A stretch of DNA of 64,000 bases from Maribacter ulvicola (GTDB lineage: Bacteria > Bacteroidota > Bacteroidia > Flavobacteriales > Flavobacteriaceae): NCBI RefSeq assembly GCF_900155985.1, contig NZ_FTMA01000008.1:62001-126000 (forward strand), in the 5' to 3' direction. A program made the translations under genes and the position numbers. The first letter of the stretch is position 1; every line of letters begins with the position of its first letter. Below the pieces are notes generated by a model, which saw only the letters and a list, made by a program, of their open reading frames with translations, was not told the origin of the DNA and did not search any database. Below, piece by piece: positions 370 through 44,283 of the stretch.

Positions 370-385
370 GGTAACCAATGTTACA
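370..385 (-). promoter_or_regulatory. Crp/Fnr-type operator and promoter of cydA
   Basis: The 16-mer GGTAACCAATGTTACA is a near-palindrome of the GTAAC-N4-GTTAC class. On the minus strand a -7 element TACTTTTG lies at 349-342, with 20 nt between operator and element, one less than the 21 nt seen at the other sites. The predicted transcript starts near 337, upstream of the cydA ATG at 308. Confidence 0.75.
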
Positions 386-521
386 TATTTGAAGAAAAAT
401 CAAAATTAAATAAGTATTTAAACCTAAATTGAAGAGCTTATAGAATAATGTATTTAAATTCTTATTTAATACTATGTATTTATGGGCAGAATTCTCAATT
501 TACAAAATTTGGGGCAAAGAA

Positions 522-559
522 AAATCCCTAGAAAATGTATGAGCAAATTCTAGGGATTT
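522..559 (-). terminator. Terminator after dps
   Basis: A 12-bp perfect inverted repeat (AAATCCCTAGAA / TTCTAGGGATTT) with a 14-nt loop is followed on the minus strand by a T-rich run. It closes the peroxiredoxin-dioxygenase-dps operon. Confidence 0.75.
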
Positions 560-578
560 AGAGATATCAGCGTTTGAC

Positions 579-1058
579 TTAGTCTTTATATGCAGACAGC
601 ATCCAAACTAATTTTTCCTGTTGTGTAATATAATCGCTCATTAAAGAAACGGTACCTTCATCTTCTGCCTCAGCAGCAATTTTAAGGGTAGCTCTTTCCT
701 TTTTCAATAAGATACTTAGGCTCTCTAAAATATTGTCTACAGCCTTGTCGCCATCTACAACATTTTCGCTGGCTTTAATTTCAGAATGATCAGTATACTT
801 TGTGAAAGTGTGAATAGGAGTATTGCTTAGTGTTAGCACACGCTCCGCTATTTCATCGACCTTGATCAAAGCATCATTATATAACTCCTCGAATTTAAGG
901 TGAAGTTCAAAAAACTTCTTTCCTTTAATATTCCAATGAAAACCTCTTAGATTCATATAGAACATTTGATAATTAGATAGTAAATCATTTAAATGATTTG
1001 CGATATCGTTAGATTCTTTTTTATCTAGACCGATATTTGATAAATTTGAATTTGTCAT
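579..1058 (-). CDS. dps: Dps-family ferritin-like DNA-binding protein
   Basis: A 159-residue ferritin-like protein of normal Dps length. The ferroxidase-site signature is visible: NLRGFHWNIKGKKFFELH followed by FEELYNDALIKVDEIAERV, giving the His, His, Asp and Glu ligands expected at the dimer interface. Dps dodecamers oxidise Fe(II) with hydrogen peroxide and protect DNA. The gene overlaps the preceding dioxygenase-rhodanese gene by 4 nt (ATGA), so translation is coupled, and it is the last gene of an operon starting with a peroxiredoxin. That links iron and peroxide protection with persulfide removal. Confidence 0.92.
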   Translation of the reverse strand: MTNSNLSNIGLDKKESNDIANHLNDLLSNYQMFYMNLRGFHWNIKGKKFFELHLKFEELYNDALIKVDEIAERVLTLSNTPIHTFTKYTDHSEIKASENVVDGDKAVDNILESLSILLKKERATLKIAAEAEDEGTVSLMSDYITQQEKLVWMLSAYKD

Positions 1059-2401
1059 AATTTGGTTTTGTAATTGTTTATTTTTTCGCTTAGGTCGTAT
1101 ACCTCGGTATTATGAATTTGTTTTGATACAATGCTTGATCCTGCAGCACTTCTATAGCCGCCAGCACAATGTATTACAATTGGTTTGTTCGTCGGAATTT
1201 TGTCGATAGCATTACGTAATTCATTTAAAGGTATATTAATTGCGCTATCAAAAAAATGACCGTCATTGAATTCACTTTTGTTCCTAATGTCTACAATGGT
1301 ATAATTTTCTTTGTTTTTATCAAAATCGGTAAAATCAAATTCATCTTCTTTTTCATAAACCTTGTGTAATGTTAAAACAGCTTTTACTTGACTTTCATAA
1401 CCTATTTTGGCTATTCGTTCAAGTAATGCTTGCTTGTCATTTATGCTTGCCACGACAATATAGAACGGTTCTGAAGGTTCAACAATAGACCCTAGCCAAG
1501 TTTCAATTTTATCATCAATATTTCTAGCCATGATATTAATGGAATTTGGTAAATGATTTTTCTTGAATTCTGCCTTATCTCTGGTATCTATGACCAAAAT
1601 ATTCTTTTCAATTTTGAAAGCTCCTATTTGTAAAGGAATTTGAGAAATAGCGTCTATATTATTTGGAGCACCTGTTTTATTGATAGCTACATCATGCCCA
1701 AAGTAAGATGGAATAAAAGGCTGGTCTTTTAAAATATGGTCAACAAAATCTTCTTCAGTTAATGTTTTAAAAGCCCAATTTCCCATGCGTTCATTCCTCA
1801 AAGTACTAGAAGAATCGCTACTCATATTCTTACCACATAAAGAACCTGCACCATGGGCAGGGTAAACTAAGGTGTCATCTGAAAGATGATTGAATTTGTT
1901 TTGCATAGTGTGGTACATGTCTTTTGCCAATTGCTCGCGTTTAGCTTTCATGTTCCCCGCTTTTTCCCTTAAGTCTGGTCTACCAACATCTCCAATAAAT
2001 AAAGTATCTCCGGTAAACATTGCTTGTTTATCGTCGTTACCTTTTGCAACAATGGTAATACCGTCTGGTGAATGCCCAGGAGTATTAATTGCCGTAAAGG
2101 TTACATCATTCATTTTAAGAGTAGCGCCATCATCAAATGTTTTATGCGGATAATCAGCACCTACCAACTCACTCACATAAATTACAGCATCAGTCTCTTT
2201 ATGTATTTGTAAATGGCCACTAACGAAATCAGCATGAGGATGCGTCTCGAAAACGGCAACAATTTTAGCATTGTTTTCCTCGGCAAATTTATAATATGGT
2301 TCTGGATCTCTAGATGGATCTACTAAAGCCATTTCATTGCCACTTAAAATTGCGTATGAATAATGAGCCAACGGTTTATCTTCAAATTGTTTAATTATCA
2401 T
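1055..2401 (-). CDS. Persulfide dioxygenase-like metallo-beta-lactamase fold protein with two rhodanese domains (copy 1)
   Basis: 448 residues. The N-terminal half is an ETHE1-type metallo-beta-lactamase fold with ETHPHADFVSGH (iron ligands) and GDTLFIGDVGRPD, then YPAHGAGSLCGKNM. Two rhodanese domains follow; the first lacks a catalytic Cys, whereas the second has HCAGGYRSAAG with the active-site Cys. ETHE1-type enzymes oxidise glutathione or protein persulfide to sulfite with O2, and rhodaneses move sulfane sulfur. This is the most diverged and shortest of three paralogues in the window (others at 16226 and 17861). It lies between a peroxiredoxin and dps, separated from the former by a hairpin. 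Its activity is inferred from family membership. Confidence 0.85.
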   Translation of the reverse strand: MIIKQFEDKPLAHYSYAILSGNEMALVDPSRDPEPYYKFAEENNAKIVAVFETHPHADFVSGHLQIHKETDAVIYVSELVGADYPHKTFDDGATLKMNDVTFTAINTPGHSPDGITIVAKGNDDKQAMFTGDTLFIGDVGRPDLREKAGNMKAKREQLAKDMYHTMQNKFNHLSDDTLVYPAHGAGSLCGKNMSSDSSSTLRNERMGNWAFKTLTEEDFVDHILKDQPFIPSYFGHDVAINKTGAPNNIDAISQIPLQIGAFKIEKNILVIDTRDKAEFKKNHLPNSINIMARNIDDKIETWLGSIVEPSEPFYIVVASINDKQALLERIAKIGYESQVKAVLTLHKVYEKEDEFDFTDFDKNKENYTIVDIRNKSEFNDGHFFDSAINIPLNELRNAIDKIPTNKPIVIHCAGGYRSAAGSSIVSKQIHNTEVYDLSEKINNYKTKL

Positions 2402-2428
2402 AAGAACAGTTTTTAACGATTAAAAAAG

Positions 2429-2459
2429 AATCGGTTTTGAAAACTGTTCAAAACCGATT
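2429..2459 (-). terminator. Hairpin between peroxiredoxin and dioxygenase genes
   Basis: A perfect 13-bp stem (AATCGGTTTTGAA / TTCAAAACCGATT) with a 5-nt loop is followed on the minus strand by TTCTTTTTTAA. It looks like an intrinsic terminator, yet the downstream gene has no visible operator, so it may act as a partial terminator that lowers expression of the distal genes. Confidence 0.75.
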
Positions 2460-2468
2460 TCTATATAA

Positions 2469-3095
2469 TTATATAGATTTTTTGGCAAGGTACCAATCGA
2501 CTTTCTCTAAAGTATCATCCTCCAATCTAGCGTTAAGCTCATCTAAAGTTTTTGGAGGGGATACAATAACCTTATAACCTCTTTTCCAATCTAAGGGCAT
2601 GGCAACTTTATGTTTGTCAGAAGTTTGTAAAGCATCTAATGCACGAAGTATTTCATCCATATTTCTACCTACGTTTAGTGGGTAATACATTACCAATCTT
2701 ATTTTTTTCTTAGGATCGATAAAAAATACAGCTCTTACTGCAGCTGTTTCACTTTCGTTAGGTTGTAACATGCCGTAAGCTTTTGAAACCTTCATGTCTA
2801 GATCAGCAATAATCGGGAAGTCGAAATACACTCCCGTATTTTCTCTTACATTCTGTACCCAACCTAAGTGTGCGTGAACACTGTCTATACTTAAACCTAA
2901 AAGTTCAGTATTAAGTTCATCAAATTCACTTTTACGAGTTGCAAAGCCGCTCATTTCTGTGGTACATACAGGTGTAAAATCAGCAGGATGCGAAAACATG
3001 ACAATCCATTTGTCTTTTGCAAAATCAGACATTTTAATTTTTCCCTTAGTAGTAACTGCTTCAAAATCTGGAGCCATGTCACCAATTCTAGGCAT
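2469..3095 (-). CDS. 1-Cys type peroxiredoxin (Prx6 family)
   Basis: About 208 residues starting MPRIGDMAPDFEA. The peroxidatic motif HPADFTPVCTTEMSGFA is clear and the length and C-terminal half (VAMPLDWKRGYKVIV) fit the Prx6 group. It reduces hydrogen peroxide and organic peroxides in the cytoplasm. I chose the ATG at 3095; a longer frame opens with GTG at 3104 but adds only three residues, and the ATG gives the usual family N-terminus. First gene of the operon with the dioxygenase and dps, under the operator at 3198-3213. Confidence 0.9.
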   Translation of the reverse strand: MPRIGDMAPDFEAVTTKGKIKMSDFAKDKWIVMFSHPADFTPVCTTEMSGFATRKSEFDELNTELLGLSIDSVHAHLGWVQNVRENTGVYFDFPIIADLDMKVSKAYGMLQPNESETAAVRAVFFIDPKKKIRLVMYYPLNVGRNMDEILRALDALQTSDKHKVAMPLDWKRGYKVIVSPPKTLDELNARLEDDTLEKVDWYLAKKSI

Positions 3096-3197
3096 AGAAA
3101 TCACTTGTTCCTGTATATTATTTTCGTTATTAATAATAAGTATTATTTATAATTTTTTTAATTTATGATAAAATTAAGTTATGAATAGCGTTTGTAA

Positions 3198-3213
3198 TGT
3201 AACCTTGGTTACA
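3198..3213 (-). promoter_or_regulatory. Crp/Fnr-type operator of the peroxiredoxin operon
   Basis: TGTAACCTTGGTTACA is a perfect 16-bp palindrome. On the minus strand the -7 element TAATTTTA lies at 3176-3169, 21 nt from the operator, predicting a start near 3164 and placing the operator centre at about -41.5. Confidence 0.82.
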
Positions 3214-3313
3214 CACATTATTTTTTAACATTTTTTTACAAATACAAGCAGGTATAACCTTTTAGAATAGCTTTGATAAATAAAATGTAGTGTTACTAAG
3301 ATTATGTTAGTTA

Positions 3314-3329
3314 TGTGACTAATGTCACA
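3314..3329 (+). promoter_or_regulatory. Hybrid Crp/Fnr-type operator and promoter for the small Cys-rich protein and copper receptor
   Basis: TGTGACTAATGTCACA is a perfect 16-bp palindrome of the hybrid GTGAC-N4-GTCAC class. The -7 element TAATTTTG lies at 3351-3358, again 21 nt away. The predicted start falls near 3363, the A of the start codon, so the message may be leaderless. Confidence 0.8.
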
Positions 3330-3362
3330 TTTTAAACCAACATGGTCATTTAATTTTGCAGC

Positions 3363-3740
3363 ATGAAGTTGTCAAGCTTTACGATAGCAATAATGTTCAC
3401 TTTCATTTCTTTGGCAAGTAGTTTTAAGACTGCCAGCGTTATGAGCTATTATGCTGTGTTTACAAATGATTTCGTAGAGCGTTTCTGCGAGAATAAAGAA
3501 CGACCAGAATTAAAATGTGATGGTAAATGTGCTTTATCTCAAATGTTATCTCAGAAGGCTGATGACGAAAAAACACCAATTAATTTAGACTTGCTTAAAA
3601 ACGAAACAGTATTTTTTATTGGATCGTTGACTACATACGAGTGTGTACAACTATCTAGAAAAGTGTTGCATAATGTAAAGTATCGTGTGCTTTACGATTT
3701 TCATTTCTTTGAGCGTATCAAACATCCGCCAGAAGTTTAA
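3363..3740 (+). CDS. Small exported Cys-rich protein, function unknown
   Basis: 125 residues with a hydrophobic N-terminal segment (residues 5-20) that looks like an uncleaved or cleavable export signal. A Cys cluster, FCENKERPELKCDGKCALSQ, suggests metal or thiol chemistry. Small flavobacterial proteins of this kind often sit just upstream of TonB receptors, as here (82 nt gap). Because the adjacent receptor carries copper motifs, I infer a role in copper handling, perhaps capture in the envelope; this is not shown. The ATG lies 5 nt after the -7 element, so translation may start on a leaderless message. The C-terminus ends HPPEV, and the unrelated-looking small protein at 8618 likewise ends in a proline-rich tail. 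Confidence 0.7.
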   Translation: MKLSSFTIAIMFTFISLASSFKTASVMSYYAVFTNDFVERFCENKERPELKCDGKCALSQMLSQKADDEKTPINLDLLKNETVFFIGSLTTYECVQLSRKVLHNVKYRVLYDFHFFERIKHPPEV

Positions 3741-3821
3741 GGTTTTTACTTCAATCTATTGTATCTAACGCCTATTTAATAGGAAGTTGGATAGTATTTC
3801 AATTAATTAAAAATTTAAACA

Positions 3822-6119
3822 ATGAACCTAAAATATCTTTGGGTACTAGCGGTATTATTATCGACACCCTTACTTTACGCACAAAATTTATCAGGAAAAA
3901 TTATCTCTGAAATGGACCAGCAACCGCTTGATGGTGCTCATATTCTAGCTAATAACGGATTAGCAACATATACCAATTTTGATGGCGATTTTGTTCTGAA
4001 AAATGTAGAAGAGAATGTAATCTTGACCATATCTTATGTTGGCTATAAGACCGTAGAATGTCAGGTAATTAACATTAATTCCCCAATAGTAATCACCTTA
4101 CAAGAAGCGCCTATTGCTATTAACGGAGTTTTAGTGACAGGAAATATGAAAATTGATCCGGTACTTACTTTAGAGACCAATGATTATGTCAAGAGAATAG
4201 TTCAGCCTAGAAATGTAGCCGATCTTTTTAATGATGTTAATGGTTTTTCGTTGATTAAAAGAGGTAATTATGCAATTGATCCTAGTTTTAGAGCAACGCA
4301 ATATGAACAGTTAAATGTGCAGTTTGATGGTGGTACAAAAGCTATGAATGCTTGTCCCAATCGTATGGATCCCATAACTACCCATGTAATACCAGAAGAA
4401 ATTGAAAAAATTGAAATAATAAAAGGACCATACTCTGTTAGATATGGTGCTACTTTTGGTGGTATCGTTAACATGGTAACTCAAAAACCGACTGTAGAAG
4501 ATTATGGGCTGCATGGTAGTGCAAGCGGGGGTTATGAAAGTAACGGTAATTCTATGGTCTCCATGGCAAGGTTACAACAGGCAACTGAGCAATATGATAT
4601 AGCAGGTAATATAGGTTTTCGAGATTTTGGTAATTATAAAGATGGTAACGGTACAGAAATTCCGTCTTCTTTTAGAAGCTTTGATTACGGAATTAAAGCG
4701 GGTGTCAATTTTACTGAAAATCAAAGACTACAAGCGCATTGGCGACAGTCTTTTGGGCGCGATGTTTTGCATGCCGGTTTACCCATGGATACTGAAGAGG
4801 ACAACAGTAGTATTCTCTCTTTAGATTATAAATTAGGTAGTCTGCTAGGTCTTATTGAAAGTATAGATTCTAAAATTTATTATAGCTATGTAGATCATGT
4901 AATGACTAATTACAATAGACCAACTTTTATGATGACATCTGCGATTTCTGCTATTGATGCTACCACGGCAGGTGGTAAAGTAGAATTAAAATTAAAACCG
5001 ACAGACAATCTTGCGCTATTTACGGGTGTTGATGTTTTGCATATTGCACGAGATGGCAATAGAACACGATTAGTGAAAAGAAATGCTATGGGAACTTTAG
5101 ATACACCCTTAACATTTGAAGATAAGGTATGGCAAGATTCATATATAAATGATATTGGTTTTTTTGCAGAAAGTAAATACCCCATAACAGAAAAAACCAT
5201 GCTAACAGCAGGTGTGCGTTATGATAATGTTACTTCTGATGCTAACGATCCAGAAGCTGACTTTGCTGCTTTATACACTGACCTAGATAAAAGAACTGAG
5301 CATAATTTTAGTGGTACAGCTTCAATAAAATATGTGGATTCTCCACAATTTATTATGGAAGTGGCGTATGGTCGTGGTGTTAGATCTGCAAATATGATTG
5401 AACGTTTTATCAATCATTTTAGCGTAGGTCAAGACGCGTATGAATATGTTGGTAATCCTAATTTAGAGGCTGAAGTAAATAATCAGCTTGAGGTAGGTTT
5501 TAAAGGGAAGATGCCTATTTCAGAAAATACTTCAGATAGGTTCAGTTATAGTACTTCTTTCTATTACTCGTTATACGAAAATTATATAGTGGCTATAATA
5601 GACGAAACGCAAACAAGAAAATTCATGCCAATGAACCAGCCATCTAATGCAAAGGTTTTTAGAAATTTAGATGATGCATATAAGACAGGTTTTGAAATTA
5701 TGGCAGGTGTAGACTTTTGTAATCATTTCAATTTTACAACGAAACTTGCTTATGTATATGCTAAGAATAATGACTTAAATGAGTCATTACCTTTGGTACC
5801 ACCTTTAGTTACAAGATTTAAATTGGGCTATGAAAAAGAAAAGTTTTGGGTAAATGCAGAATATAGACTGACTACAGAGCAAGATAATATTGCGTTTTCT
5901 TTTGGTGAACAGGTTACACCAGGTTATGAAATAATGGATTTACGTTTGGGTGTAATACCAATGAAAAACCTAACCTTAGGCGTTGCGGCATTAAATGTTT
6001 TTAATAAAACATATAGTAATCACCTCAATTTCGCATTTAATAATCAGGCAGATTTTGGAACAGAACCCATTAATGACCCTGGAAGAAACCTATCGGTTTT
6101 TGTTCAATATGAATTTTAA
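3822..6119 (+). CDS. TonB-dependent outer-membrane receptor with OprC/NosA-like copper motifs
   Basis: 765 residues: signal peptide (1-20, ending LLYAQ), a carboxypeptidase-regulatory-like domain (about 22-95), a plug (about 105-215, with EKIEIIKGPYSVRYG and GGIVNMVT) and a 22-strand-type barrel ending in an aromatic residue (VFVQYEF). Within the plug I read ACPNRM, giving C178-x3-M182, and in the barrel DHVM, giving H359-x-M361. CxxxM plus HxM is the copper site described for Pseudomonas OprC, and its relative NosA feeds copper to N2O reductase. The product is therefore probably an outer-membrane copper importer supplying NosZ and cbb3 oxidase encoded downstream. It follows the small Cys-rich protein under the same hybrid operator. 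Confidence 0.85.
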   Translation: MNLKYLWVLAVLLSTPLLYAQNLSGKIISEMDQQPLDGAHILANNGLATYTNFDGDFVLKNVEENVILTISYVGYKTVECQVININSPIVITLQEAPIAINGVLVTGNMKIDPVLTLETNDYVKRIVQPRNVADLFNDVNGFSLIKRGNYAIDPSFRATQYEQLNVQFDGGTKAMNACPNRMDPITTHVIPEEIEKIEIIKGPYSVRYGATFGGIVNMVTQKPTVEDYGLHGSASGGYESNGNSMVSMARLQQATEQYDIAGNIGFRDFGNYKDGNGTEIPSSFRSFDYGIKAGVNFTENQRLQAHWRQSFGRDVLHAGLPMDTEEDNSSILSLDYKLGSLLGLIESIDSKIYYSYVDHVMTNYNRPTFMMTSAISAIDATTAGGKVELKLKPTDNLALFTGVDVLHIARDGNRTRLVKRNAMGTLDTPLTFEDKVWQDSYINDIGFFAESKYPITEKTMLTAGVRYDNVTSDANDPEADFAALYTDLDKRTEHNFSGTASIKYVDSPQFIMEVAYGRGVRSANMIERFINHFSVGQDAYEYVGNPNLEAEVNNQLEVGFKGKMPISENTSDRFSYSTSFYYSLYENYIVAIIDETQTRKFMPMNQPSNAKVFRNLDDAYKTGFEIMAGVDFCNHFNFTTKLAYVYAKNNDLNESLPLVPPLVTRFKLGYEKEKFWVNAEYRLTTEQDNIAFSFGEQVTPGYEIMDLRLGVIPMKNLTLGVAALNVFNKTYSNHLNFAFNNQADFGTEPINDPGRNLSVFVQYEF

Positions 6120-6131
6120 TAGATGAATATA

Positions 6132-6751: not shown

Positions 6752-6762
6752 GTGGTAATTAT

Positions 6763-7290: not shown

Positions 7291-7405
7291 GTGCTCGTTA
7301 TATTTAAAATAATAGTCAGGCTATTTAAAAATTATTGCGTTAAAGAGTTACTAATGTCCGTTTTTTTTTAATTTAATAAAAATAAGTTTAGGTAATTAAT
7401 GCAAG

Positions 7406-7421
7406 TGTAACCTAGGTTACA
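7406..7421 (-). promoter_or_regulatory. Crp/Fnr-type operator between dsrE-like and cytochrome genes
   Basis: TGTAACCTAGGTTACA is a perfect palindrome. On the minus strand the -7 element TATTTTTA lies at 7384-7377, 21 nt away, so the dsrE-like gene is the clear target. On the plus strand the nearest candidate, TACTTTAG at 7456-7463, is 34 nt away; control of the cytochrome gene is possible but does not fit the fixed spacing. Confidence 0.8.
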
Positions 7422-8564: not shown

Positions 8565-8580
8565 AGTAACAAATGTTACA
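8565..8580 (+). promoter_or_regulatory. Crp/Fnr-type operator and promoter for the 8618-11590 operon
   Basis: AGTAACAAATGTTACA matches the GTAAC-N4-GTTAC class. The -7 element TAATTTCG lies at 8602-8609, 21 nt away, predicting a start near 8614. An ATG at 8573 lies inside the operator and so cannot be the translation start of this transcript. Confidence 0.8.
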
Positions 8581-8617
8581 CACGGTGATGGTGCTTTACC
8601 TTAATTTCGTCACTGCA

Positions 8618-9495: not shown

Positions 9496-9506
9496 AATAA
9501 ATTAAA

Positions 9507-11999: not shown

Positions 12000-13310
12000 T
12001 TATACATTTGATCCTTTCATCATTTTATTCCAGTACAAGTAGGGGAGTCCGTATTTTTTAAGCATCCATAACCTCCAATGTTCTTTAGAAGAGTCGTTAA
12101 TTAGCATTCTCTTCAACTTAGGGTCTGGCGTAAAGTTGTTATCATAATCAAATTCTGCCAATACCATTTTACCGTAATCGGTAACCAGTGGACAAGATGA
12201 GTAGCCATTATATGCTTTGGTTCCTATTTTATGGGTTTTTATTAATAAATCTAGATTGTCAACTACAATAGGCACTTGTTTACGTATGGCAGCTCCTGTT
12301 TTTGCTGTTGGTAATGCAGCTACATCACCAAGACTAAAAATATTAGCGTATGTATTATGCTGCATGGTTTTATGATCTACATCTAACCACCCGGCGGCAT
12401 TTACTAGGGTAGATTCTTTTACAAATTTAGGAGCAACAGAAGGCGGTGCGGTATGCATCATATCATAATGAATACCATAGCGATTACCATCTACCGTTAC
12501 TTTCACATCTTTATAATTGTATTGAAATTTCTCATCTAACTTTAATTCATCCATTTTATTGCTTGAAATTACAACACAACCACCAGCAGTAATTTCTTGC
12601 CCCATTTCATACCAAGCAATTTTTTTATCACCATCTACCGCAACCAATTTATGGTGAAATCTTAGGTTGATATCCTTTCTATCTACAACCTCCATTAAGG
12701 TCTTGGCAATTTTCTTTACTCCGAAAATGACAGTTCCACCCGTAGCAAAAATGACATCGGTTTTCTTTCTAACCCCACTTTTTCTAAAGTGGTTCTCTGC
12801 CAAATACATTATTTTTTGTGGAGCTCCACCACATTTAATAGGTGTTGTGGGTTGGGTGAACAAGGCGGTACCACCTTTAAAGTTTTTAATAACGTTCCAA
12901 GTATGATTAGGGTCTGTATAATTACTACAAACCACTCCTTTATCTATAGCTTCACCTAAGCCGGGTACTAAGCTAAAATCATATGCAAGACCTGGTGCAA
13001 CTACTAAATAATCGTAGGTAATATCTCCTTTAGATGCAGTGTGTACAATATTATTATCGGGGTCAAAACCAGTAGCTTTATCTTTTATCCAAGTAGCATT
13101 TTTGGGCATAACCGATGACATAGGCCTAGCCGTTTTTTCAAAATCATACGTACCGGCACCTACTAAAGTCCATGCCGGTTGGTAATAATGTGTATCTGCC
13201 GGTTCAATAATTGCGACATCTTTTGCTTTTTTTTGAGAGATTAGCTGCGCAGCCACCATAATACCTGCCGTACCACCTCCAATAATCAATACCTGATGAT
13301 GTGAACTCAT
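12000..13310 (-). CDS. sqr: Sulfide:quinone oxidoreductase, SQOR type
   Basis: 436 residues. An FAD-binding Rossmann start (VLIIGGGTAGIMVAAQL), the redox Cys in PIKCGGAPQK, and a C-terminal half with YSSCPLVTDYGKMVLAEFDYD and LPYLYWNKMMKG all resemble the mitochondrial SQOR type closely. The enzyme is peripheral to the inner membrane; it oxidises sulfide to sulfane sulfur and reduces quinone, which makes the persulfide used by the dioxygenases encoded at 16226 and 17861. It is transcribed alone, between a strong terminator and the operator at 13368. Confidence 0.92.
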   Translation of the reverse strand: MSSHHQVLIIGGGTAGIMVAAQLISQKKAKDVAIIEPADTHYYQPAWTLVGAGTYDFEKTARPMSSVMPKNATWIKDKATGFDPDNNIVHTASKGDITYDYLVVAPGLAYDFSLVPGLGEAIDKGVVCSNYTDPNHTWNVIKNFKGGTALFTQPTTPIKCGGAPQKIMYLAENHFRKSGVRKKTDVIFATGGTVIFGVKKIAKTLMEVVDRKDINLRFHHKLVAVDGDKKIAWYEMGQEITAGGCVVISSNKMDELKLDEKFQYNYKDVKVTVDGNRYGIHYDMMHTAPPSVAPKFVKESTLVNAAGWLDVDHKTMQHNTYANIFSLGDVAALPTAKTGAAIRKQVPIVVDNLDLLIKTHKIGTKAYNGYSSCPLVTDYGKMVLAEFDYDNNFTPDPKLKRMLINDSSKEHWRLWMLKKYGLPYLYWNKMMKGSNV

Positions 13311-13367
13311 TTTGTTATTATTGTTTATATCAATACTATAAATATAACGGATATAAAATATATAATA

Positions 13368-13383
13368 CGTAACTAATGTTACA
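13368..13383 (-). promoter_or_regulatory. Crp/Fnr-type operator and promoter of sqr
   Basis: CGTAACTAATGTTACA matches the GTAAC-N4-GTTAC class. On the minus strand the -7 element TATATTTA lies at 13346-13339, 21 nt away; predicted start near 13334, ATG at 13310. Confidence 0.82.
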
Positions 13384-13644: not shown

Positions 13645-13808
13645 AACACTTGTTTTTAATAGGTTTCTGTAATGTTGGCAATCTTTAGTAGACATATTAA
13701 ACAGAAGATCTAGTTGATAAATCTTAGCCTTTACCAAAGTACTATAATCTAAGTACGTGGCATATGACATTGGTCAGCTTAAAATTAATGGTGAAACATG
13801 GTTTCTAA

Positions 13809-13824
13809 AGTAACTTTGGTTACA
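13809..13824 (-). promoter_or_regulatory. Crp/Fnr-type operator between DUF2892 and desaturase-like genes
   Basis: AGTAACTTTGGTTACA. On the minus strand the -7 element TAATTTTA lies at 13787-13780 (21 nt). On the plus strand TATTTTTG lies at 13849-13856, 24 nt away, in front of the gene at 13874. The minus target fits the rule exactly; the plus target is probable but off by 3 nt. Confidence 0.8.
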
Positions 13825-17635: not shown

Positions 17636-17686
17636 AATTTAATGTTTAATATTGGTACAAAATTACATGTACATATGCTATTGCAC

Positions 17687-17702
17687 AGTAACTTTGGTTA
17701 CA
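17687..17702 (-). promoter_or_regulatory. Crp/Fnr-type operator and promoter of dioxygenase copy 2
   Basis: AGTAACTTTGGTTACA. On the minus strand the -7 element TAATTTTG lies at 17665-17658, 21 nt away; predicted start near 17653, ATG at 17635. Confidence 0.82.
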
Positions 17703-19276: not shown

Positions 19277-19331
19277 GTTGCTGTAAGTTTTAGTTAATAC
19301 TATAAAATTACCTTTTGTGAAGCGGCTGTAC

Positions 19332-19347
19332 AGTGACATTAGTCACA
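19332..19347 (-). promoter_or_regulatory. Hybrid Crp/Fnr-type operator and promoter of dioxygenase copy 3
   Basis: AGTGACATTAGTCACA is of the hybrid GTGAC-N4-GTCAC class. On the minus strand the -7 element TAATTTTA lies at 19310-19303, 21 nt away; predicted start near 19298. Confidence 0.8.
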
Positions 19348-20158: not shown

Positions 20159-20206
20159 GTAATATATTTATATATTACAAATGTAAAGTGGGGTATAAAC
20201 CTGTGC

Positions 20207-20222
20207 AGTAACAATGGTTACA
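20207..20222 (-). promoter_or_regulatory. Crp/Fnr-type operator and promoter of the TauE/SafE gene
   Basis: AGTAACAATGGTTACA. On the minus strand the -7 element TACATTTG, a perfect TAnnTTTG, lies at 20185-20178, 21 nt away. The ATG is at 20158. The operator lies just beyond the 3' end of the crp-type gene at 20229. Confidence 0.82.
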
Positions 20223-20228: not shown

Positions 20229-20861
20229 TTATAAATCCAGAATTTCTAAATAATTTCGGTGAAGTTTTATTTTTTTCATTTCTTCCAGTTTTTTTAATAG
20301 TCTAGAAATCACTACCCTAGAGCTGTGAAGGTCATATGCAATTTCTTGATGGGTGCTATGAATAATATCGTCTTTTGTAACCCTGGCCTTTTCTTTTAGG
20401 TAGCCAATTAGACGTTCATCCATTTTTTGGAAAGCAATATTATCTAAGGTGCTTAACAGTTCGTTTAACCTAACGTGGTAGCTATTAAATACAAAGTTTC
20501 TCCAGGATTTATATTTGGCAGTCCATTCTTCCATTTTTTGAATGGGCACCATAATCAATTTTGCATCAGTTTCTGCAATAGCTCTAATTTCACTTTTATT
20601 ATCGCCCATACAACAGGCCATGGTCATAGAACAGGTATCTCCTTTTTCCAAATAGTACAACAGTAATTCATCGCCATCTTCATCTTCCCTTAAAATCTTA
20701 ATAACACCAGAAATCAATAAAGGCATACCCCTAACGTAATCACCTATTTCCATAAGTTTATATCCTTCAGGAACTTCTTTAAAGGTACCTACTTGCACAA
20801 TTTCATTGATAAGTTCTTCTTCAAAGATTTTTCCGTATTCGGTCGTAAGGTCTTGGATCAT
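20229..20861 (-). CDS. Crp/Fnr-family transcriptional regulator (proposed GTAAC-site regulator)
   Basis: 210 residues: cyclic-nucleotide-like beta-barrel (about 25-115), dimer helix, and a C-terminal winged helix-turn-helix (about 165-200). There is no N-terminal FNR-type Cys cluster, but the barrel contains DTCSMTMACCMG with Cys77, Cys83 and Cys84, possible thiol sensors. The recognition helix reads SSRVVISRLL: Arg182 and Arg187 correspond to Crp Arg180 and Arg185, while the Crp Glu181 position is Val183. That fits an operator keeping G at half-site position 2 but having A instead of G at position 4, as in TGTAAC. It starts 1 nt after the DUF983 gene and is coupled to it under the operator at 21305, so it likely controls itself and the sulfur island. 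Confidence 0.88.
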   Translation of the reverse strand: MIQDLTTEYGKIFEEELINEIVQVGTFKEVPEGYKLMEIGDYVRGMPLLISGVIKILREDEDGDELLLYYLEKGDTCSMTMACCMGDNKSEIRAIAETDAKLIMVPIQKMEEWTAKYKSWRNFVFNSYHVRLNELLSTLDNIAFQKMDERLIGYLKEKARVTKDDIIHSTHQEIAYDLHSSRVVISRLLKKLEEMKKIKLHRNYLEILDL

Positions 20862-20862: not shown

Positions 20863-21258
20863 TTATTTTGAATTAATTTTCTGTGCTATTTCCTTATCAA
20901 AGTTAAAAAATATATTTGCCCAAATAGATTTGGATACGGCTGCGATCCATGGCATTGTTACCACTAGTGCTGTAACTATTATTATAAACAAAGTACCAAT
21001 AGAAAGCGCTAAGCCAAATAACAAAGTTAATACGTATGCCGCTACAGCTACGGCAATACCTACGCCGTAGGAAACATACATAGATCCAGTATAAAAACTG
21101 GGTTCAATGCTATATTTTAAATGGCACTTTGGGCAACGTTCCTTAACCTTGTTGAAATTACTTAATTTATAAGGATTTGCCGTAAAAAACTCACCTTTAT
21201 GACAACGTGGACACTTTAAAAAAAGAATACTATATAATTTGGAACCTTGTGGTAACAT
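20863..21258 (-). CDS. DUF983 membrane protein with zinc-ribbon-like N-terminus
   Basis: 131 residues. Two CxxC pairs at the N-terminus (KCPRCHKGEF and RCPKCHLKY) form a probable zinc ribbon, followed by two membrane helices and AVSKSIWANIFFNFD. This is the DUF983 pattern; DUF983 genes often sit beside heme-copper oxidase genes. The function is unknown. It is cotranscribed with the Crp-type regulator. Confidence 0.85.
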   Translation of the reverse strand: MLPQGSKLYSILFLKCPRCHKGEFFTANPYKLSNFNKVKERCPKCHLKYSIEPSFYTGSMYVSYGVGIAVAVAAYVLTLLFGLALSIGTLFIIIVTALVVTMPWIAAVSKSIWANIFFNFDKEIAQKINSK

Positions 21259-21304
21259 GTATTTAGATTTTGTATCAAAATTATTGGATCAAACTTTTGA
21301 ATTT

Positions 21305-21320
21305 GGTAACATAAGTTACA
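21305..21320. promoter_or_regulatory. Crp/Fnr-type operator between DUF983-crp and hemN
   Basis: GGTAACATAAGTTACA. On the minus strand TAATTTTG lies at 21283-21276 (21 nt) for the DUF983-regulator operon. On the plus strand TAGTTTTA lies at 21341-21348 (20 nt) for hemN. One operator can thus serve both directions. Confidence 0.8.
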
Positions 21321-21442
21321 TAAGCGGGTTTATGACTCTTTAGTTTTACGAGAAAGTTATCTTTTTTCAATCTGGCTTCAACTGATATAAATCATATTTT
21401 TTACTGGCAATGACGTGTATGTTTGTCTCAAACAAAATTTAT

Positions 21443-23881: not shown

Positions 23882-23897
23882 TATGACCTTAGTCATA
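23882..23897 (+). promoter_or_regulatory. FNR-like operator and promoter of the nos operon
   Basis: TATGACCTTAGTCATA is a perfect palindrome of the TGAC-N4-GTCA class. The -7 element TACATTTG, a perfect TAnnTTTG, lies at 23919-23926, 21 nt away. Predicted start near 23931, first gene ATG at 23958. Confidence 0.83.
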
Positions 23898-23957
23898 TTT
23901 TTTCCTTTTTATCCCACATACATTTGTTCTATTAATAAACCAATAAATAGATTAAAA

Positions 23958-32399: not shown

Positions 32400-33854
32400 T
32401 TAGTTACCTAAATGCTCATTATAAAATTTCCAAGCTTGTGTAGCAACATCCCTACCTAACTCCAAACCTGCAATATTATCGGCTTGGATGTGGTAACCGC
32501 CCATAACTCTAGACATACCGGCCATGTTTGCGGCTTCCGTAAAGGTGGGAAAAGTTATGGTAACAGGTTTTCCGTAGAAAGCAGTATCAATTTCAGTTAG
32601 AGCTCCGGGTGTTAATTCTACTGATTCACCAAAATATTCATCTCCTGTAAATAAGCGTAGTACTTCTGCGCAACTACCACTTATAGTGCTATGACCAGAA
32701 GTGTAACTAGGGAACGGTGGGCAAAGAAAAATATCTGGAGAGTATGGTCTCCATTCTTGTCCTTTCATTTCTACGATCCCTACTCCAGGTCCGCCCCAAG
32801 CTTTAATCGTTTGGTCTTTGTAATATTCGTGAACTAGTGCATAAGGCCTTGCATAATCATAGAACATCTTAGAGTCCCAAGAAGCTATAAAGGCATCCAT
32901 AGCGGTTATTTCAGTTAAGAAATACATTTTTACATCTTGATCAAGGGTATGGTTATCACGTCGAGAAACGTCTTGTGCAAATTTTAACCAATGTCCCGCT
33001 TGTTGCACAGATTGCGGACCGTCACGCATAAACTCAACCAGCGCCTTATCCTCATCAGATAAGTTAGCTTGTAGGTCAACCACTTCTTTTACTTCTTTTT
33101 TTAACTGTTGAGAACCATATATTGGTGGTGGTCCCGGTCTAAACTGATCAGCCGATGTCAAGGTGATCGGTGTTACTTTTTGCCAGTAGGGAGTAAGGCA
33201 TCCTGGGGCGTATTGGCCACCATTACCATCAGAGAAATATTTAGGCTGCCAAAGATTAATATCGGTATTTTCATCAGCAGTATTAACAGGTTTGTAATTG
33301 GTGTAATCGTAATACGGTTTTCCTTTAGATCCTGCTATTGTACCATATTGATTGCTTCCATCATTTTTTCTGGCTTCAATGGTTGCCTTAGCGGCCAAGT
33401 TTCCAATTCCTTCAGGAGTGTTAGGGTCCATTGAGGTATTGTCTGGGTCAAGCCCTAATTCTATCATAAATTCTCTAAACATTTCGGTGTCGGAATAATA
33501 GTATTCTTTCATAGCTCCAAAAGCGGCATAGCTAATAGCTATTTCCTTGTTAGATATCTTTTGCTCAGCTAAAGGTCTCCTTTCGGCAGCTTTTAAAAAA
33601 ACGGGAATTGCTTTTTCGTCATAGCGTGACCAGGCATCGAAAATAGAGATAAAAATCAGCCCCAAGTAACGAGAAGTAATGGTAGGTCTAGGTTTAAACT
33701 TTTCGGTATCGGAGGCGGTAGCATCTAATGCCATTTTCCCCCATTTATAGGCCATATTATCAGTTCCCTTTGGTTCTGGTACGTAATCTTGGGCAAAAGT
33801 TTTTACCATACTTAAAAAAGCAATGGTGAATGTTAAGTATAGAATACGTTTCAT
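32400..33854 (-). CDS. Vanadium-dependent haloperoxidase-like PAP2 family protein, exported
   Basis: 484 residues with a signal peptide (ending VKTFAQ). The three PAP2/vanadium-haloperoxidase motifs are in order: KMFYDYARPYA (Lys and Arg), PFPSYTSGHSTISGS, and SRVMGGYHIQADN (Arg and His). This set binds vanadate in haloperoxidases or phosphate in PAP2 phosphatases; the length and periplasmic location favour the former group. Halogen substrate cannot be predicted. It is the last gene downstream of the cco cluster, 62 nt after an unknown gene. Confidence 0.8.
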   Translation of the reverse strand: MKRILYLTFTIAFLSMVKTFAQDYVPEPKGTDNMAYKWGKMALDATASDTEKFKPRPTITSRYLGLIFISIFDAWSRYDEKAIPVFLKAAERRPLAEQKISNKEIAISYAAFGAMKEYYYSDTEMFREFMIELGLDPDNTSMDPNTPEGIGNLAAKATIEARKNDGSNQYGTIAGSKGKPYYDYTNYKPVNTADENTDINLWQPKYFSDGNGGQYAPGCLTPYWQKVTPITLTSADQFRPGPPPIYGSQQLKKEVKEVVDLQANLSDEDKALVEFMRDGPQSVQQAGHWLKFAQDVSRRDNHTLDQDVKMYFLTEITAMDAFIASWDSKMFYDYARPYALVHEYYKDQTIKAWGGPGVGIVEMKGQEWRPYSPDIFLCPPFPSYTSGHSTISGSCAEVLRLFTGDEYFGESVELTPGALTEIDTAFYGKPVTITFPTFTEAANMAGMSRVMGGYHIQADNIAGLELGRDVATQAWKFYNEHLGN

Positions 33855-38219: not shown

Positions 38220-38230
38220 GATTTTTTGTT

Positions 38231-40429: not shown

Positions 40430-40513
40430 AATTATACTTGTTTATTTAGTTGGATTTTATTTTTCTAAAAGAAGAACAAAGAGAAAATAGAGATGGGACT
40501 CTTGACGCTATTA

Positions 40514-40711
40514 CTAATGTTCAACATATTTTTTATTTATTTCACTCTTTTCATTCTTGCTGGTTTTCACCAGTTCATCTTCAAAAAGCATACGCACTGA
40601 GGGGGTATAAGAATCATCATACTGTCCTTGCCTAACCGATACGATAAAAGCGACGAAAAAGATAATTGCCACAACTAGACTAATTGCTAGTAAAACATAT
40701 ATAACACTCAT
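40514..40711 (-). CDS. ccoS: CcoS, cbb3 oxidase maturation protein
   Basis: 65 residues from MSVIYVLLAISLVVA: one membrane helix, then FIVSVRQGQYDDSYTPSVRMLFED, the CcoS signature. The frame extends to 40774, but that ATG lies inside the operator, so 40711 is the start. First gene of the transcript that runs through ccoNO. Confidence 0.88.
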   Translation of the reverse strand: MSVIYVLLAISLVVAIIFFVAFIVSVRQGQYDDSYTPSVRMLFEDELVKTSKNEKSEINKKYVEH

Positions 40712-40759
40712 ACCTACTTGAATTATTCTGTAAAAATAAGAGGGATGTAAACCAAAGAA

Positions 40760-40775
40760 AATGACAATTGTCATA
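40760..40775 (-). promoter_or_regulatory. FNR-like operator and promoter of the ccoS-ccoNO operon
   Basis: AATGACAATTGTCATA contains the 14-bp palindrome ATGAC-AATT-GTCAT. On the minus strand the -7 element TATTTTTA lies at 40738-40731, 21 nt away; predicted start near 40726. Confidence 0.83.
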
Positions 40776-40999
40776 CTTTAAAAGTTTTCTTAATATTTTT
40801 AAAATGAAAATTATGTTTAGGTTATAAAGGTTGGGTGTAATAAGCTGTAAGTAAGCAATTAACTTCAATTTTGTAAATGTGTATTTCGCTAATTAGAATT
40901 ACTTTAAATACTCATGTACAGCGGAAAAAATGGAGTAGGGCAGAATCAAACTTAATTAGAAAATTGATGTCATATGGAAGTTTGATAACTGCTCTTTGA

Positions 41000-43396
41000 T
41001 TATGATAATTTTCTGCCGATAAGGTTGGTCATTACCGTAGTAAAAATAACAATGCTTATAGAGCTCAGTGGCATTAGAATAGCAGCTATTACCGGCTCTA
41101 ATTGTCCTGTAATTGCAAAATACAGTCCCACGCAATTATAAAGTAATGATAGAATAAAACTCATTTTAATAATACGGATTGCTTTTTTAGATGCCAGTAT
41201 GTAACCGTAGAGCTGCTGAAATTTAGAAGCATCTAATATGGCATCGCAGGCAGGGGAGAAGACATTAATGTTTTCAGATATGGCAATGCCTACATTACTT
41301 TGAGCAAGAGCTCCGGCGTCATTTAAACCATCACCCACCATAAGTACTTTTTTTCCTTGATCCTGTAAAGATTTTATGAACTCTAGTTTGGTTTCTGGTT
41401 TTTGATTAAAGTACAAGGGAGTCATTTTTGGCAGCAGTGCTTCCAATCGTTCTTTTTCTCCTTCATTATCACCGGATAGTATGGCCAGATTAATTGATTC
41501 TGACATACTTTTGAATACAGAGGAAAGCCCGTCACGATATTGATTTTGAAAAACATACCTTCCTTTATACGCATTATTAGCGCTGATGTAAATAGATGTA
41601 TCCAATAGATTTTCTGAACTACTTTTACCTACAAAGTTAGCAGAGCCAATTTTCATGTTTATGTCGTCTTTTGAGCTTTCTAACCCTTTTCCAATATGTT
41701 CTTCGTATTCATCTAAAGTAATGATATTCTGTTCCTTAAGCAGGTCATATAAAGATCTACTTAAAGGATGGTTAGAAGCTCTTATGGTATTCTTTAAAAT
41801 AGATTCTTCTTCTGGTGATAAGGGCATACCTTCATAGTGTGCGGTGCTTTTTTGAGAAGTAGTAATTGTGCCTGTTTTATCAAAGATGGCGGTATCTATT
41901 TTTGCCAACCGCTCAATGGTCTGGGTGTCTTTGATATAGAATTTCTTCTTGCCAAAAATGCGCAACATGTTTCCCAAGGTAAATGGAGAGGCCAAAGCTA
42001 TGGCACACGGACAAGCAATAATTAACACAGCGGTAAAAACGTTCATGGCTTTAGATGGGTCATAGTATAGCCAAAAAGCAGTTGAAATAAAAGCAATGGA
42101 AAGCACTGTGATAGTAAAGCGTTTTCCAATACTATCTGTTAGGTTTTGAAATGACGTTACCTTATCTGTTTTAAAAACGGCATTGCCCCATAACTGGGTC
42201 AGGTAACTTTGAGAAACAGATTTTAAGGCAATTACCTCTATAACACCGTTCAGTTGTTTTCCACCGGCAAAAACCTGCTGTCCAATCTCTTTTGCTACAG
42301 GTTCAGATTCTCCAGAAACAAAACTATAATCTACTTGTGCGTTTCCGTATACCAAAGTACCATCAACGGGAATCATCTCTTCATTTCTGATTAAAATACG
42401 GTCTCCCTTTTCAATTTCCTGTACCGGTACGGTTTCTTCTTTTCCGCTAGTGGTCAATCTAGTTATGGCAATAGGGAAGTACGACTTGTAGTCACGTTCA
42501 AAAGATAAAAAACTGTAGGTTCTTTGTTGAAAGAACTTGCCCAGTAATAGAAAAAATACGAGTCCGGTGAGGGAATCAAAAAATCCGCTCCCCAAATTAA
42601 AAGCAATATCATAAGTACTTCTTAGAAATAAAACCAAAATACCAAGAGCAATGGGTACATCAATATTTAAAAGTTTTGCCCGTAAACCTTTATATGCAGA
42701 CACAAAATAACTCCACCCTGCATAGAACACAACAGGTAGGGAGAAAACGAACATCATCCATCTAAATAGTTCTTGATATTTGTTCAGCCAATATTCTCCG
42801 CCAGAGTCAGCACTAGTACCCAGGTCAAAATATTCGGGAAAAGAAAGAAACATTACATTACCAAAGGCAAAACCGGCAACGCCAAGTTTATAGATCAGAC
42901 TTCGGTCAGATGCTTTCTTTTTTCCTTCAAAATCTTCTAGTGAGATGTAAGGTTCATACCCAATTTTTGCCAAAAGCAACACTAGGCTTTTTAGGCTAAA
43001 ATCTTCATTTTTATAAGTAACCCTAATCGTTTTCTTTGGAAAATCTACTTGAGAGTTTGTTACATGCTTGTTCAGTTTGTTTAAATTCTCTAAAATCCAG
43101 ATACAGGAACTACAGTGAATAGTGGGTATGTATAGGTTTATAATTTGAATATGACCATCATTAAATTCTGTTAGTTTAGCTATGATTTCTTCATTGTCCA
43201 GAAAATCATATTTTCCTTCAATAGCCTTAGGTGTAGAGCCTGCGGCTTCTTGTAATTCATAATAATGGGACAGGTCGTTGGTAGAGAATATTTCATAAAC
43301 GGTTTTGCAACCGGTACAACAAAACGATTTTTCATCATATGTTATATGATGTCTGTCACAAGGGTCTCCGCAATGAAAACATGTATCTACCTGCAT
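41000..43396 (-). CDS. ccoI: CcoI/FixI, copper-transporting P1B-type ATPase
   Basis: 798 residues. A Cys-rich N-terminal metal domain (CFHCGDPC, then CCTGC), an HMA domain with HCSSCIWILENL, membrane helices, the transport motif IIACPCAIALASPF, the phosphorylation site FDKTGTITT and the hinge MVGDGLNDAGALA. CcoI exports copper for assembly of cbb3 oxidase. Divergent from the fnr-like gene, with the operator at 43448 between them. Confidence 0.93.
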   Translation of the reverse strand: MQVDTCFHCGDPCDRHHITYDEKSFCCTGCKTVYEIFSTNDLSHYYELQEAAGSTPKAIEGKYDFLDNEEIIAKLTEFNDGHIQIINLYIPTIHCSSCIWILENLNKLNKHVTNSQVDFPKKTIRVTYKNEDFSLKSLVLLLAKIGYEPYISLEDFEGKKKASDRSLIYKLGVAGFAFGNVMFLSFPEYFDLGTSADSGGEYWLNKYQELFRWMMFVFSLPVVFYAGWSYFVSAYKGLRAKLLNIDVPIALGILVLFLRSTYDIAFNLGSGFFDSLTGLVFFLLLGKFFQQRTYSFLSFERDYKSYFPIAITRLTTSGKEETVPVQEIEKGDRILIRNEEMIPVDGTLVYGNAQVDYSFVSGESEPVAKEIGQQVFAGGKQLNGVIEVIALKSVSQSYLTQLWGNAVFKTDKVTSFQNLTDSIGKRFTITVLSIAFISTAFWLYYDPSKAMNVFTAVLIIACPCAIALASPFTLGNMLRIFGKKKFYIKDTQTIERLAKIDTAIFDKTGTITTSQKSTAHYEGMPLSPEEESILKNTIRASNHPLSRSLYDLLKEQNIITLDEYEEHIGKGLESSKDDINMKIGSANFVGKSSSENLLDTSIYISANNAYKGRYVFQNQYRDGLSSVFKSMSESINLAILSGDNEGEKERLEALLPKMTPLYFNQKPETKLEFIKSLQDQGKKVLMVGDGLNDAGALAQSNVGIAISENINVFSPACDAILDASKFQQLYGYILASKKAIRIIKMSFILSLLYNCVGLYFAITGQLEPVIAAILMPLSSISIVIFTTVMTNLIGRKLS

Positions 43397-43447
43397 AATA
43401 TTTAACTAAAAGTTATGGCAAAGGTGAAAATCAAACACTTTCTAAAA

Positions 43448-43463
43448 CATGATAATTGTCAGT
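43448..43463. promoter_or_regulatory. FNR-like operator between ccoI and the fnr-type gene
   Basis: CATGATAATTGTCAGT holds TGAT-AATT-GTCA. On the plus strand TAATTTTG lies at 43485-43492 (21 nt), for the regulator gene. On the minus strand CACCTTTG, one base off TAnnTTTG, lies at 43426-43419 (21 nt), for ccoI. This suggests autoregulation of the regulator. Confidence 0.78.
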
Positions 43464-43514
43464 TTTTAACAAACTAGGCTTGTTTAATTTTGCAATATAT
43501 TTAAAAATATTGCC

Positions 43515-44204
43515 ATGGAAAATAGATGTGAGAATTGTATAATTAGACAGTTTAATTCACTCCGTGCATTAAATAAAGATGAATTAAAAAAGGTGTCGGA
43601 CTCTAAAATATCCAAGAAGATAAAAAAGGGAGATACTTTATTTATAGAGGGACAAAAGTTAGATGGTGTTTTTTGTGTTAGAGATGGTGTTTCCAAGTTG
43701 TCTAAATTGAGTAGTAATGGTAAAGAGCAAATTGTAAAATTGACCAATAAAGGGGAGATAATGGGGCAACGTTCTGTCATCGCTGAAGATTTTACCAATT
43801 TAAGTGCAACTGCCATTAATGATATGGAAGTGTGCTTTATACCAAAGGAAGTAATATCAAACACGCTGAATACAAATCCGTATTTTTCTTTAGAAGTGTT
43901 ACGTCATATGGCCCATGATTTAAAAGAGGCAGATGATGTTATTGTAAACATGTCTCAGAAAACAGTGAAGCAACGTTTGGCAGAAGCTTTTATTTATTTA
44001 AGGAAAAATTACGGAGAAGATGAGGACGGATTTTTGTCATTAACCCTTAGTAGGGATGATTATGCAAACATTGTTGGTGCTGCTACAGAGTCGTTAATTC
44101 GTATGATTTCTGAATTTAAGAAAAAAGGATTTATAAAAACAGAAGGCAAAAAGATAGGAGTTTTAAAAGAGGATACCTTACAAGAACTTGCTGACGGTTT
44201 TTAA
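43515..44204 (+). CDS. Crp/Fnr-family regulator, FNR-like (proposed TGAC-site regulator)
   Basis: 229 residues. It begins MENRCENCIIR, giving Cys5 and Cys8; with Cys54 and Cys107 there are four Cys that could hold an oxygen- or NO-sensitive Fe-S cluster, although the spacing is not identical to E. coli FNR. Sensor barrel about 20-125, winged helix about 148-225. The recognition helix reads AATESLIRMI: Glu192 and Arg196 match Crp Glu181/Arg185 and FNR Glu209/Arg213, while the Crp Arg180 position is Thr191. That predicts an operator reading the inner GA of TGA without a need for the outer G, as in TGAC-N4-GTCA. It probably activates nos, cco, itself and the stress gene at 44284. Confidence 0.88.
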   Translation: MENRCENCIIRQFNSLRALNKDELKKVSDSKISKKIKKGDTLFIEGQKLDGVFCVRDGVSKLSKLSSNGKEQIVKLTNKGEIMGQRSVIAEDFTNLSATAINDMEVCFIPKEVISNTLNTNPYFSLEVLRHMAHDLKEADDVIVNMSQKTVKQRLAEAFIYLRKNYGEDEDGFLSLTLSRDDYANIVGAATESLIRMISEFKKKGFIKTEGKKIGVLKEDTLQELADGF

Positions 44205-44216
44205 ATAATTATTGAA

Positions 44217-44232
44217 ATTGATAAATGTCATA
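44217..44232 (+). promoter_or_regulatory. FNR-like operator and promoter of the second universal stress gene
   Basis: ATTGATAAATGTCATA holds TGAT-AAAT-GTCA. The -7 element TAATTTTA lies at 44254-44261, 21 nt away; predicted start near 44266. The operator was found by looking for the fixed spacing and then reading the palindrome. Confidence 0.75.
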
Positions 44233-44283
44233 GTTTCCATTCTTTGGGCGTGCTAATTTTAGCATCAAATGAAGAGTTCATTT

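Follow-up and report, generated by a model that had tools for sequence, protein, structure and literature searches.

A class II position is the usual one for proteins of the Crp/Fnr superfamily, and class II activation of the FNR/FixK type places the centre of the operator at -41.5. Among the described members, NtcA is reported to read GTAN8TAC near -41.5 (PMC3898017), and HcpR2, which occurs in Bacteroides and other bacteria, is described with the core motif GTAACnnnnGTTAC, a proline at residue 181 and hcp as target (Rodionov 2005, PMC1274295). For HcpR of Bacteroides thetaiotaomicron, the reported predicted contacts include Pro187 (PMC13370916), and in Flavobacterium psychrophilum the sigma-A box TAnnTTTG is reported to span -12 to -5 (PMC9723704). 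Here, we analysed a window of 64,000 nucleotides from Maribacter ulvicola (NZ_FTMA01000008.1, positions 62,001 to 126,000), part of contig C9 of the 4.51-Mb genome, in which 15 palindromes of 16 bp stand at a near-constant distance from a -7 box and which encodes two Crp/Fnr regulators, designated CRP-A (20229..20861, minus strand) and CRP-B (43515..44204, plus strand). Sequence comparisons indicate that the palindromes of the form TGTRAC-N4-GTYACA are most likely operators of CRP-A, which is predicted to activate genes of sulfide and persulfide metabolism from a class II position. The sites with their spacing and conservation, the gene content and the co-occurrence were computed, while binding, activation and signal are what we infer.

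A preliminary description of the window had listed these 15 palindromes, and all of them were recovered at those places. Both sides of each palindrome were scanned from 0 to 44 nt for the exact box TAnnTTTR, the distance being counted from the outer edge of the 16-mer to the first base of the box. On the side of the served gene, an exact box is present at 14 of the 15 palindromes, that is at 21 nt in 13 cases and at 20 nt in front of cydA (site 370), and site 8565 has the box TAATTTCG, with one mismatch, at 21 nt. A divergent second promoter at site 21305, directed towards hemN, has its box at 20 nt, and at site 43448 an extra one-mismatch box, CACCTTTG, lies at 21 nt facing a copper P-type ATPase gene. 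When both-direction sites are counted, the window holds 17 candidate promoters. Other exact boxes occur at 13809 (24 nt, other side), 40760 (18 and 36 nt, other side) and 43448 (32 nt). Thus, the previously claimed invariant distance of 21 nt, with cydA at 20 nt, stands for the 14 exact boxes, whereas the box at 8565 is mismatched and the hemN promoter also has 20 nt. An open reading frame (ORF) of at least 60 amino acids with an ATG, GTG or TTG start, searched over about 250 nt with the box taken as -12 to -5, begins 0–82 nt past the predicted transcription start in all 17 candidate promoters; no weight was placed on the distances from box to start codon, for which starts were assigned mechanically and some values are negative.

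This arrangement is not expected by chance. A loose operator pattern matches the window 22 times, and in 13 promoters it is combined with an exact box at 20–22 nt, a rule that misses sites 8565, 43448 and 44217. The same rule yielded a mean of 0.14 and a maximum of one in 100 first-order Markov shuffles, and one in the reversed window. When 31 spacings were allowed, the GTAAC palindromes of the whole genome gave 12 promoters with a box, nine at 21 nt, two at 20 nt and one at 24 nt, and a single 32-kb stretch (C9:51145-83319) contains 12 of the 17 GTAAC-N4-GTTAC palindromes of the genome. Beyond the window, class A palindromes, as we call the TGTRAC type, are found at genes for an efflux protein (57219), a YeeE-type sulfur transporter (51145) and a flavoprotein (59235). 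The exact box is absent at 51145, 59235 and four palindromes on contigs C5, C6 and C10, which may be chance occurrences. Far from the cluster, on contig C12 (L047:6628-7104), a ferritin-like gene of the Dps type has a class A operator with the exact 21-nt spacing.

The spacing is also conserved across the Flavobacteriaceae. In 80 named CRP-A loci of relatives (L051-L130; 1.50 Mb; 31 named genera, with 14 loci lacking a genus name), 188 of 234 GTAAC-N4-GTTAC palindromes have their exact box 21 nt away, four have it at 20 nt and one at 22 nt, and each of the remaining offsets between 0 and 44 contributes zero to four boxes. When each genus, or each locus without a genus, was represented by a single locus (45 groups), about 100 of 128 palindromes had an exact box at 21 nt. 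Among all GTRAC palindromes of the 80 loci (n=262), 208 have an exact box, 36 a box with one mismatch and 18 neither, and 77 of the loci contain at least one GTRAC promoter. By gene, spacer identity was 0.29–0.37 among homologous promoters, as compared to 0.30 for random pairs, while the distance of 21 nt is kept; thus, the spacer has been nearly randomised in sequence but not in length. When all 5+4+5 palindromes in these loci were scanned without bias for a box at 21 nt (3083 palindromes, 622 half-sites), GTAAC came first with 188 occurrences, followed by GTGAC, ATGAC and ATGAT with nine each, and the remaining half-sites among the 12 top-ranked all reached two at most. In 149 genomes of the family, GTAAC-N4-GTTAC-N21..23-TAnnTTTR matched 362 times, in 107 genomes, as compared to 11 matches for the reversed pattern; the arrangement is thus a recurrent one in the family. 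In a phylum-wide draw, 11 of the 15 genomes from the family had sites, as did 9 of the 133 from outside it, where the strict pattern, with 12 matches in these nine genomes against seven control matches, is little above control. As a side observation, TG directly follows the proximal half-site in 104 of 214 class A promoters of the 80 loci, while the mirror CA occurs distally in 1 of 214. This TG is common at tauE, PDO2, PDO3, rhodanese and peroxiredoxin genes and rare at SQR, YgaP and fatty acid (FA) hydroxylase genes, and could represent a leftover -33 element or a strength dial.

With the flavobacterial box at -12 to -5 (PMC9723704), a distance of 21 nt places the operator at -49 to -34, and the centre derived from the predicted starts is thus about -41.5. 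The class II geometry with a centre near -41.5, as proposed in the preliminary description, is thereby supported by the published box position. A CRP-A dimer covering -49 to -34 would replace the usual -33 contact and would touch RNA polymerase, in which case the distance to the -7 box could hardly vary. The operator end at -34, beside the expected -33 contact, would also suit a repressor whose sites overlap the -33 region, with the spacing fixed by overlap alone. However, a site that acts by blocking should function at a variety of distances, whereas offsets besides 21 are almost empty, which makes repression improbable.

CRP-A itself matches PF00027 with 35.3 bits (cut-off 27.5) and PF13545 with 31.9 bits (cut-off 27), as do members of the Crp/Fnr superfamily; the Foldseek list for its predicted structure is topped by CRP/FNR structures, and named Maribacter species have proteins that share up to 96% identity with it. 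Its recognition helix reads R-V-V-I-S-R, and the 30 closest orthologues all have R-V-V-x-S-R, where x stands for I or V. The genome contains four HTH_Crp_2 matches (E <= 0.001), and the R-V helix is present in CRP-A only. At E <= 1e-20, CRP-A is found in 126 of the 149 family genomes, and sites with operator and box occur in 105 of these 126 as compared to 2 of the 23 genomes without CRP-A.

Within the window, 11 palindromes are of class A, mostly ahead of genes for sulfide, persulfide and stress, and four belong to class B, the TATGAY type. The class A operators lie on the minus strand unless stated otherwise and have their boxes at 21 nt except for cydA (bd oxidase, PF01654), whose operator at 370..385 has its box at 342-349. 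Operator 3198..3213 (box 3169-3176) precedes a peroxiredoxin gene followed by the genes for MBL-rhodanese protein 1 (PDO1) and a ferritin-like protein, and 7406..7421 (box 7377-7384) a DsrE-like gene followed by a methyltransferase gene. An SQR-like flavoprotein (12000-13310) is served by 13368..13383 (box 13339-13346), a YgaP-like transmembrane protein by 13809..13824 (box 13780-13787), and the PDO-like MBL-rhodanese proteins 2 and 3 by 17687..17702 (box 17658-17665) and 19332..19347 (box 19303-19310), respectively, the latter operator having the GTGAC form. The operator at 20207..20222 (box 20178-20185) precedes a TauE/SafE exporter gene, and the bidirectional one at 21305..21320 serves the DUF983 gene (20863..21258, minus strand) together with CRP-A behind it (box 21276-21283, 21 nt) and, on the other side, hemN (box 21341-21348, 20 nt). 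On the plus strand, 8565..8580 (box TAATTTCG at 8602-8609), the weakest of the set, precedes a small ORF with a TTG start and then a DoxX gene, and 3314..3329 (box 3351-3358), a GTGAC form, a 125-aa ORF and then a TonB receptor gene; the latter site is of class A by sequence and uncertain by homologues. The class B operators are 23882..23897 (plus strand, box 23919-23926) in front of the cytochrome c and nosZ genes, 40760..40775 (minus strand, box 40731-40738) in front of ccoS and the cbb3 oxidase genes, and two degenerate ones, 43448..43463, with a box at 43485-43492 towards CRP-B and the one-mismatch box at 43419-43426 towards the copper P-type ATPase gene, and 44217..44232 (plus strand, box 44254-44261) in front of a Usp gene. 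Between the nos and cbb3 genes, a vanadium-haloperoxidase-like ORF (32400-33854; DUF6851, VCPO_2nd, PAP2) was noticed.

In relatives, the half-site sorts the targets strongly, albeit not perfectly. The 188 GTAAC/GTAAC promoters with a box at 21 nt in the 80 loci precede homologues of TauE (34), PDO2 (30), CRP-A (17), DUF983 (13), SQR (12), rhodanese (12), FA hydroxylase (10), peroxiredoxin (9), PDO3 (8), YgaP (7), cydA (4) and others (8), and 24 have no window homologue. The GTGAC/GTGAC and mixed GTAAC/GTGAC sites (n=26) precede PDO3, PDO2, YgaP, DUF983, rhodanese and SQR genes, with two unassigned; site 19332 groups with GTAAC, as both forms precede PDO genes in relatives. Families were searched in five representatives of the 29 unassigned class A targets, revealing a sulfate permease, a molybdopterin oxidoreductase, a sulfur transport protein, an outer membrane efflux protein and one protein without family. 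Best-hit homologues of window genes have a site directly upstream, with a box of at most one mismatch, in 41 of 48 cases for PDO2, 35 of 41 for TauE, 20 of 27 for PDO3, 16 of 20 for DUF983, 14 of 18 for SQR, 12 of 17 for YgaP and 10 of 14 for peroxiredoxin.

The 27 ATGAY sites of the 80 loci, on the other hand, lie ahead of ccoS (4), Usp (6) and one nos-type cytochrome gene, and 12 are without window homologue; the remaining four precede class A-type genes (SQR 1, peroxiredoxin 2, the ORF at 3363 behind site 3314 1). The sole homologue of the latter ORF seen with a site has ATGAT, and the class of 3314 is uncertain because this ORF is among these four exceptions. The preliminary description had read all 15 sites as a single coordinated stimulon, which would have one Crp/Fnr regulator or signal serving all of them. 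Both classes indeed have identical geometry, the two regulator genes are separated by 23 kb, respiration is the theme of both gene sets, and the four exceptional ATGAY sites point the same way. However, half-sites otherwise divide by target, and no GTRAC site was found ahead of 6 ccoNO, 4 ccoS and 17 Usp homologues. Moreover, the recognition helices of CRP-A and CRP-B differ, and strict class B sites occur on three contigs, C4, C6 and C9, whereas the GTAAC palindromes are concentrated in the 32-kb stretch. Given the split of half-sites by target, we consider a single stimulon unlikely; classes A and B probably share their geometry but not their regulator.

The recognition helix of CRP-B reads T-E-S-L-I-R. 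CRP-B scores 110 bits against the NCBIfam Fnr model, below its cut-off of 228, although this is still the best-scoring named model, and Cys5, Cys8 and Cys108 may, by eye, correspond to three of the four cluster-ligating cysteines of E. coli FNR. A third Crp/Fnr protein, on contig C2 (L006; G000:C2:108389-108589, minus strand), has a helix nearly identical to that of CRP-B, A-T-E-S-L-I-R, so that CRP-B, the C2 protein or both may act on class B sites. The genome has ten strict class B sites, each of them with 21 nt when 20–22 nt are allowed (control 0), and their targets include phosphotransacetylase, PfkB, DnaJ and Usp genes. The TATGAY sites likely form a separate regulon of low-oxygen genes under the control of FNR-like CRP-B or its paralogue.

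As to the signal of CRP-A, all 30 of the closest orthologues share Cys77, Cys83 and Cys84, and this segment aligns with the F-G-V-L-S-L-L region of NtcA, a part of the NtcA effector pocket. SQR produces persulfide, and bd oxidase resists sulfide; the MBL-rhodanese proteins look to us like persulfide dioxygenases, and TauE/SafE would presumably export sulfite. The target list thus fits persulfide sensing. A survey of 146 CRP-A homologues in 140 loci revealed sulfur-gene neighbours for 103 of 112 homologues with all three cysteines as compared to 12 of 34 others, a strong association by Fisher test. However, much of it reflects shared ancestry, and persulfide or sulfane sulfur acting on Cys77, Cys83 and Cys84 is therefore treated as the likeliest signal, suggested by sequence rather than demonstrated. 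Alternatively, CRP-A may drive the same genes but sense oxygen, nitric oxide or redox state via another cofactor. The class A sites of cydA and hemN in the window and the DUF983 gene ahead of CRP-A would agree with this, and HcpR of B. thetaiotaomicron, which belongs to the same published motif group, is reported to bind haem (PMC13370916). However, the best-conserved targets are mostly PDO, TauE and SQR, the cysteine triad is invariant and hcp is missing from the genome, which makes this alternative less likely. Two variants were noticed in relatives. Loci L070, L088, L107 and L130 encode, in the same sulfur loci, a CRP-A-like paralogue of 36–38% identity with a Glu helix and Cys-Thr-Leu replacing the triad, whereas the CRP-A homologues of L131-L133, L136 and L138 have the R-V-V helix but neither the Cys pair nor sulfur neighbours in the available stretch, and may combine the same operator code with another signal.

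Several observations, besides the four exceptional ATGAY sites, weigh against the assignment of class A to CRP-A or against its proposed signal. Without the box, GTAAC-N4-GTTAC is not enriched in the whole genome (17 occurrences vs 22 for the pattern read backwards). By the strict pattern, 21 of the 126 CRP-A genomes are without a site, and the genomes without CRP-A are often small, but six of at least 3 Mb also have no site. The L086 orthologue has Glu in place of the helix Val and yet ordinary GTAAC sites, which speaks against a simple recognition code; a covariation test of the recognition code has low power, because Val is nearly constant. At the homologues of other window targets, sites are either poorly kept or hardly open to a test, with rhodanese at 14/48, FA hydroxylase 11/24, cydA 4/11, SoxA-like cytochrome 3/6, PDO1 2/5, hemN 1/7, TonB receptor 0/4 and DsrE 2/2, counts in which operon-internal genes are scored as misses. 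The CRP-A gene has a site of its own directly upstream in 17 of 85 cases. With regard to the cysteines, nine homologues with the triad have no sulfur neighbour and 12 without the full triad have one; on the tree, the cysteine state changes five times, with three independent pairs on supported branches, a number at which no significance is possible; and the predicted structure, although Crp-like in fold, is of low confidence at the cysteine region (predicted local distance difference test, pLDDT, blocks 69 and 56).

Members of the Flavobacteriaceae are abundant in the sea, where they degrade polymers and encounter sulfide in sediments and on algae. A limited search of the open-licence literature found no regulator of their sulfide genes, nor one of the Crp/Fnr family acting on such genes in the phylum. 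Regulator, operator, targets and geometry can be read from the sequence, and the regulon is therefore predictable, and testable, in other members. As a wider reading, put forward tentatively and as a nearly even call, CRP-A would found a family-wide group of Crp/Fnr sulfane-sulfur sensors in which the pocket segment is now a Cys-x5-Cys-Cys persulfide switch, and a class II promoter set of one geometry would run sulfide detoxification and, in some species, a change to bd oxidase. With its near-constant length of 21 nt and its random-like sequence, the spacer shows in a natural setting how class II geometry applies to the Bacteroidota -7 box, and the distance between operator and box can be used as a rule to locate Crp/Fnr promoters in these bacteria.

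Compared to the described systems, CRP-A resembles HcpR2 in its Crp/Fnr family membership and in that the published core motif GTAACnnnnGTTAC equals the class A core (PMC1274295), which would allow CRP-A to be HcpR2 itself, a regulator of nitrosative stress. However, HcpR2 is reported to have Pro at residue 181 and hcp as target (PMC1274295), whereas CRP-A has Val183 at the place that aligns with it by the CRP helix, and its predicted targets are sulfide and persulfide genes. A search of the whole genome for hcp (PF03063) gave no match. Among 30 hcp loci retrieved with 1.5-kb flanks from 148 Bacteroidota genomes, there is one Crp-like ORF (L162, E 2e-15 to CRP-B); a CRP-A profile had no match in these loci, and no -7 box was found at 10–34 nt from their few loose palindromes. 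In view of residue 181 and the missing hcp, an identity with HcpR2 is disfavoured and appears very improbable. NtcA is similar in that the R-V of its recognition helix lines up with that of CRP-A, and GTAACN4GTTAC contains the GTA-N8-TAC core of NtcA sites (PMC3898017), with a centre near -41.5 from the predicted starts. Unlike NtcA of cyanobacteria, CRP-A has cysteines in the sensor segment, other targets and another phylum as its home, and scores 39.1 bits, as compared to a cut-off of 244.95, against the NCBIfam NtcA model; likewise, it differs from cAMP-CRP, with 48.9 bits against the NCBIfam CRP equivalog (cut-off 266). Class B corresponds to FNR/FixK systems in its FNR-like CRP-B, its cbb3, nos and Usp targets and its centre at -41.5, but differs by the flavobacterial box TAnnTTTR, by the score of CRP-B below the Fnr cut-off and by three, by eye, of the four usual cysteines. 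The sulfane-sulfur-responsive OxyR, PerR, MarR and SoxR proteins also control genes of sulfur oxidation or sulfane sulfur through cysteine chemistry, albeit in other folds, as is true for the further sulfane-sulfur-responsive regulators SqrR, CstR and FisR; no Crp/Fnr protein is named among such regulators in the titles and abstract openings of the papers listed. Several of these proteins of other folds are repressors, whereas the position of the CRP-A operators is that of an activator.

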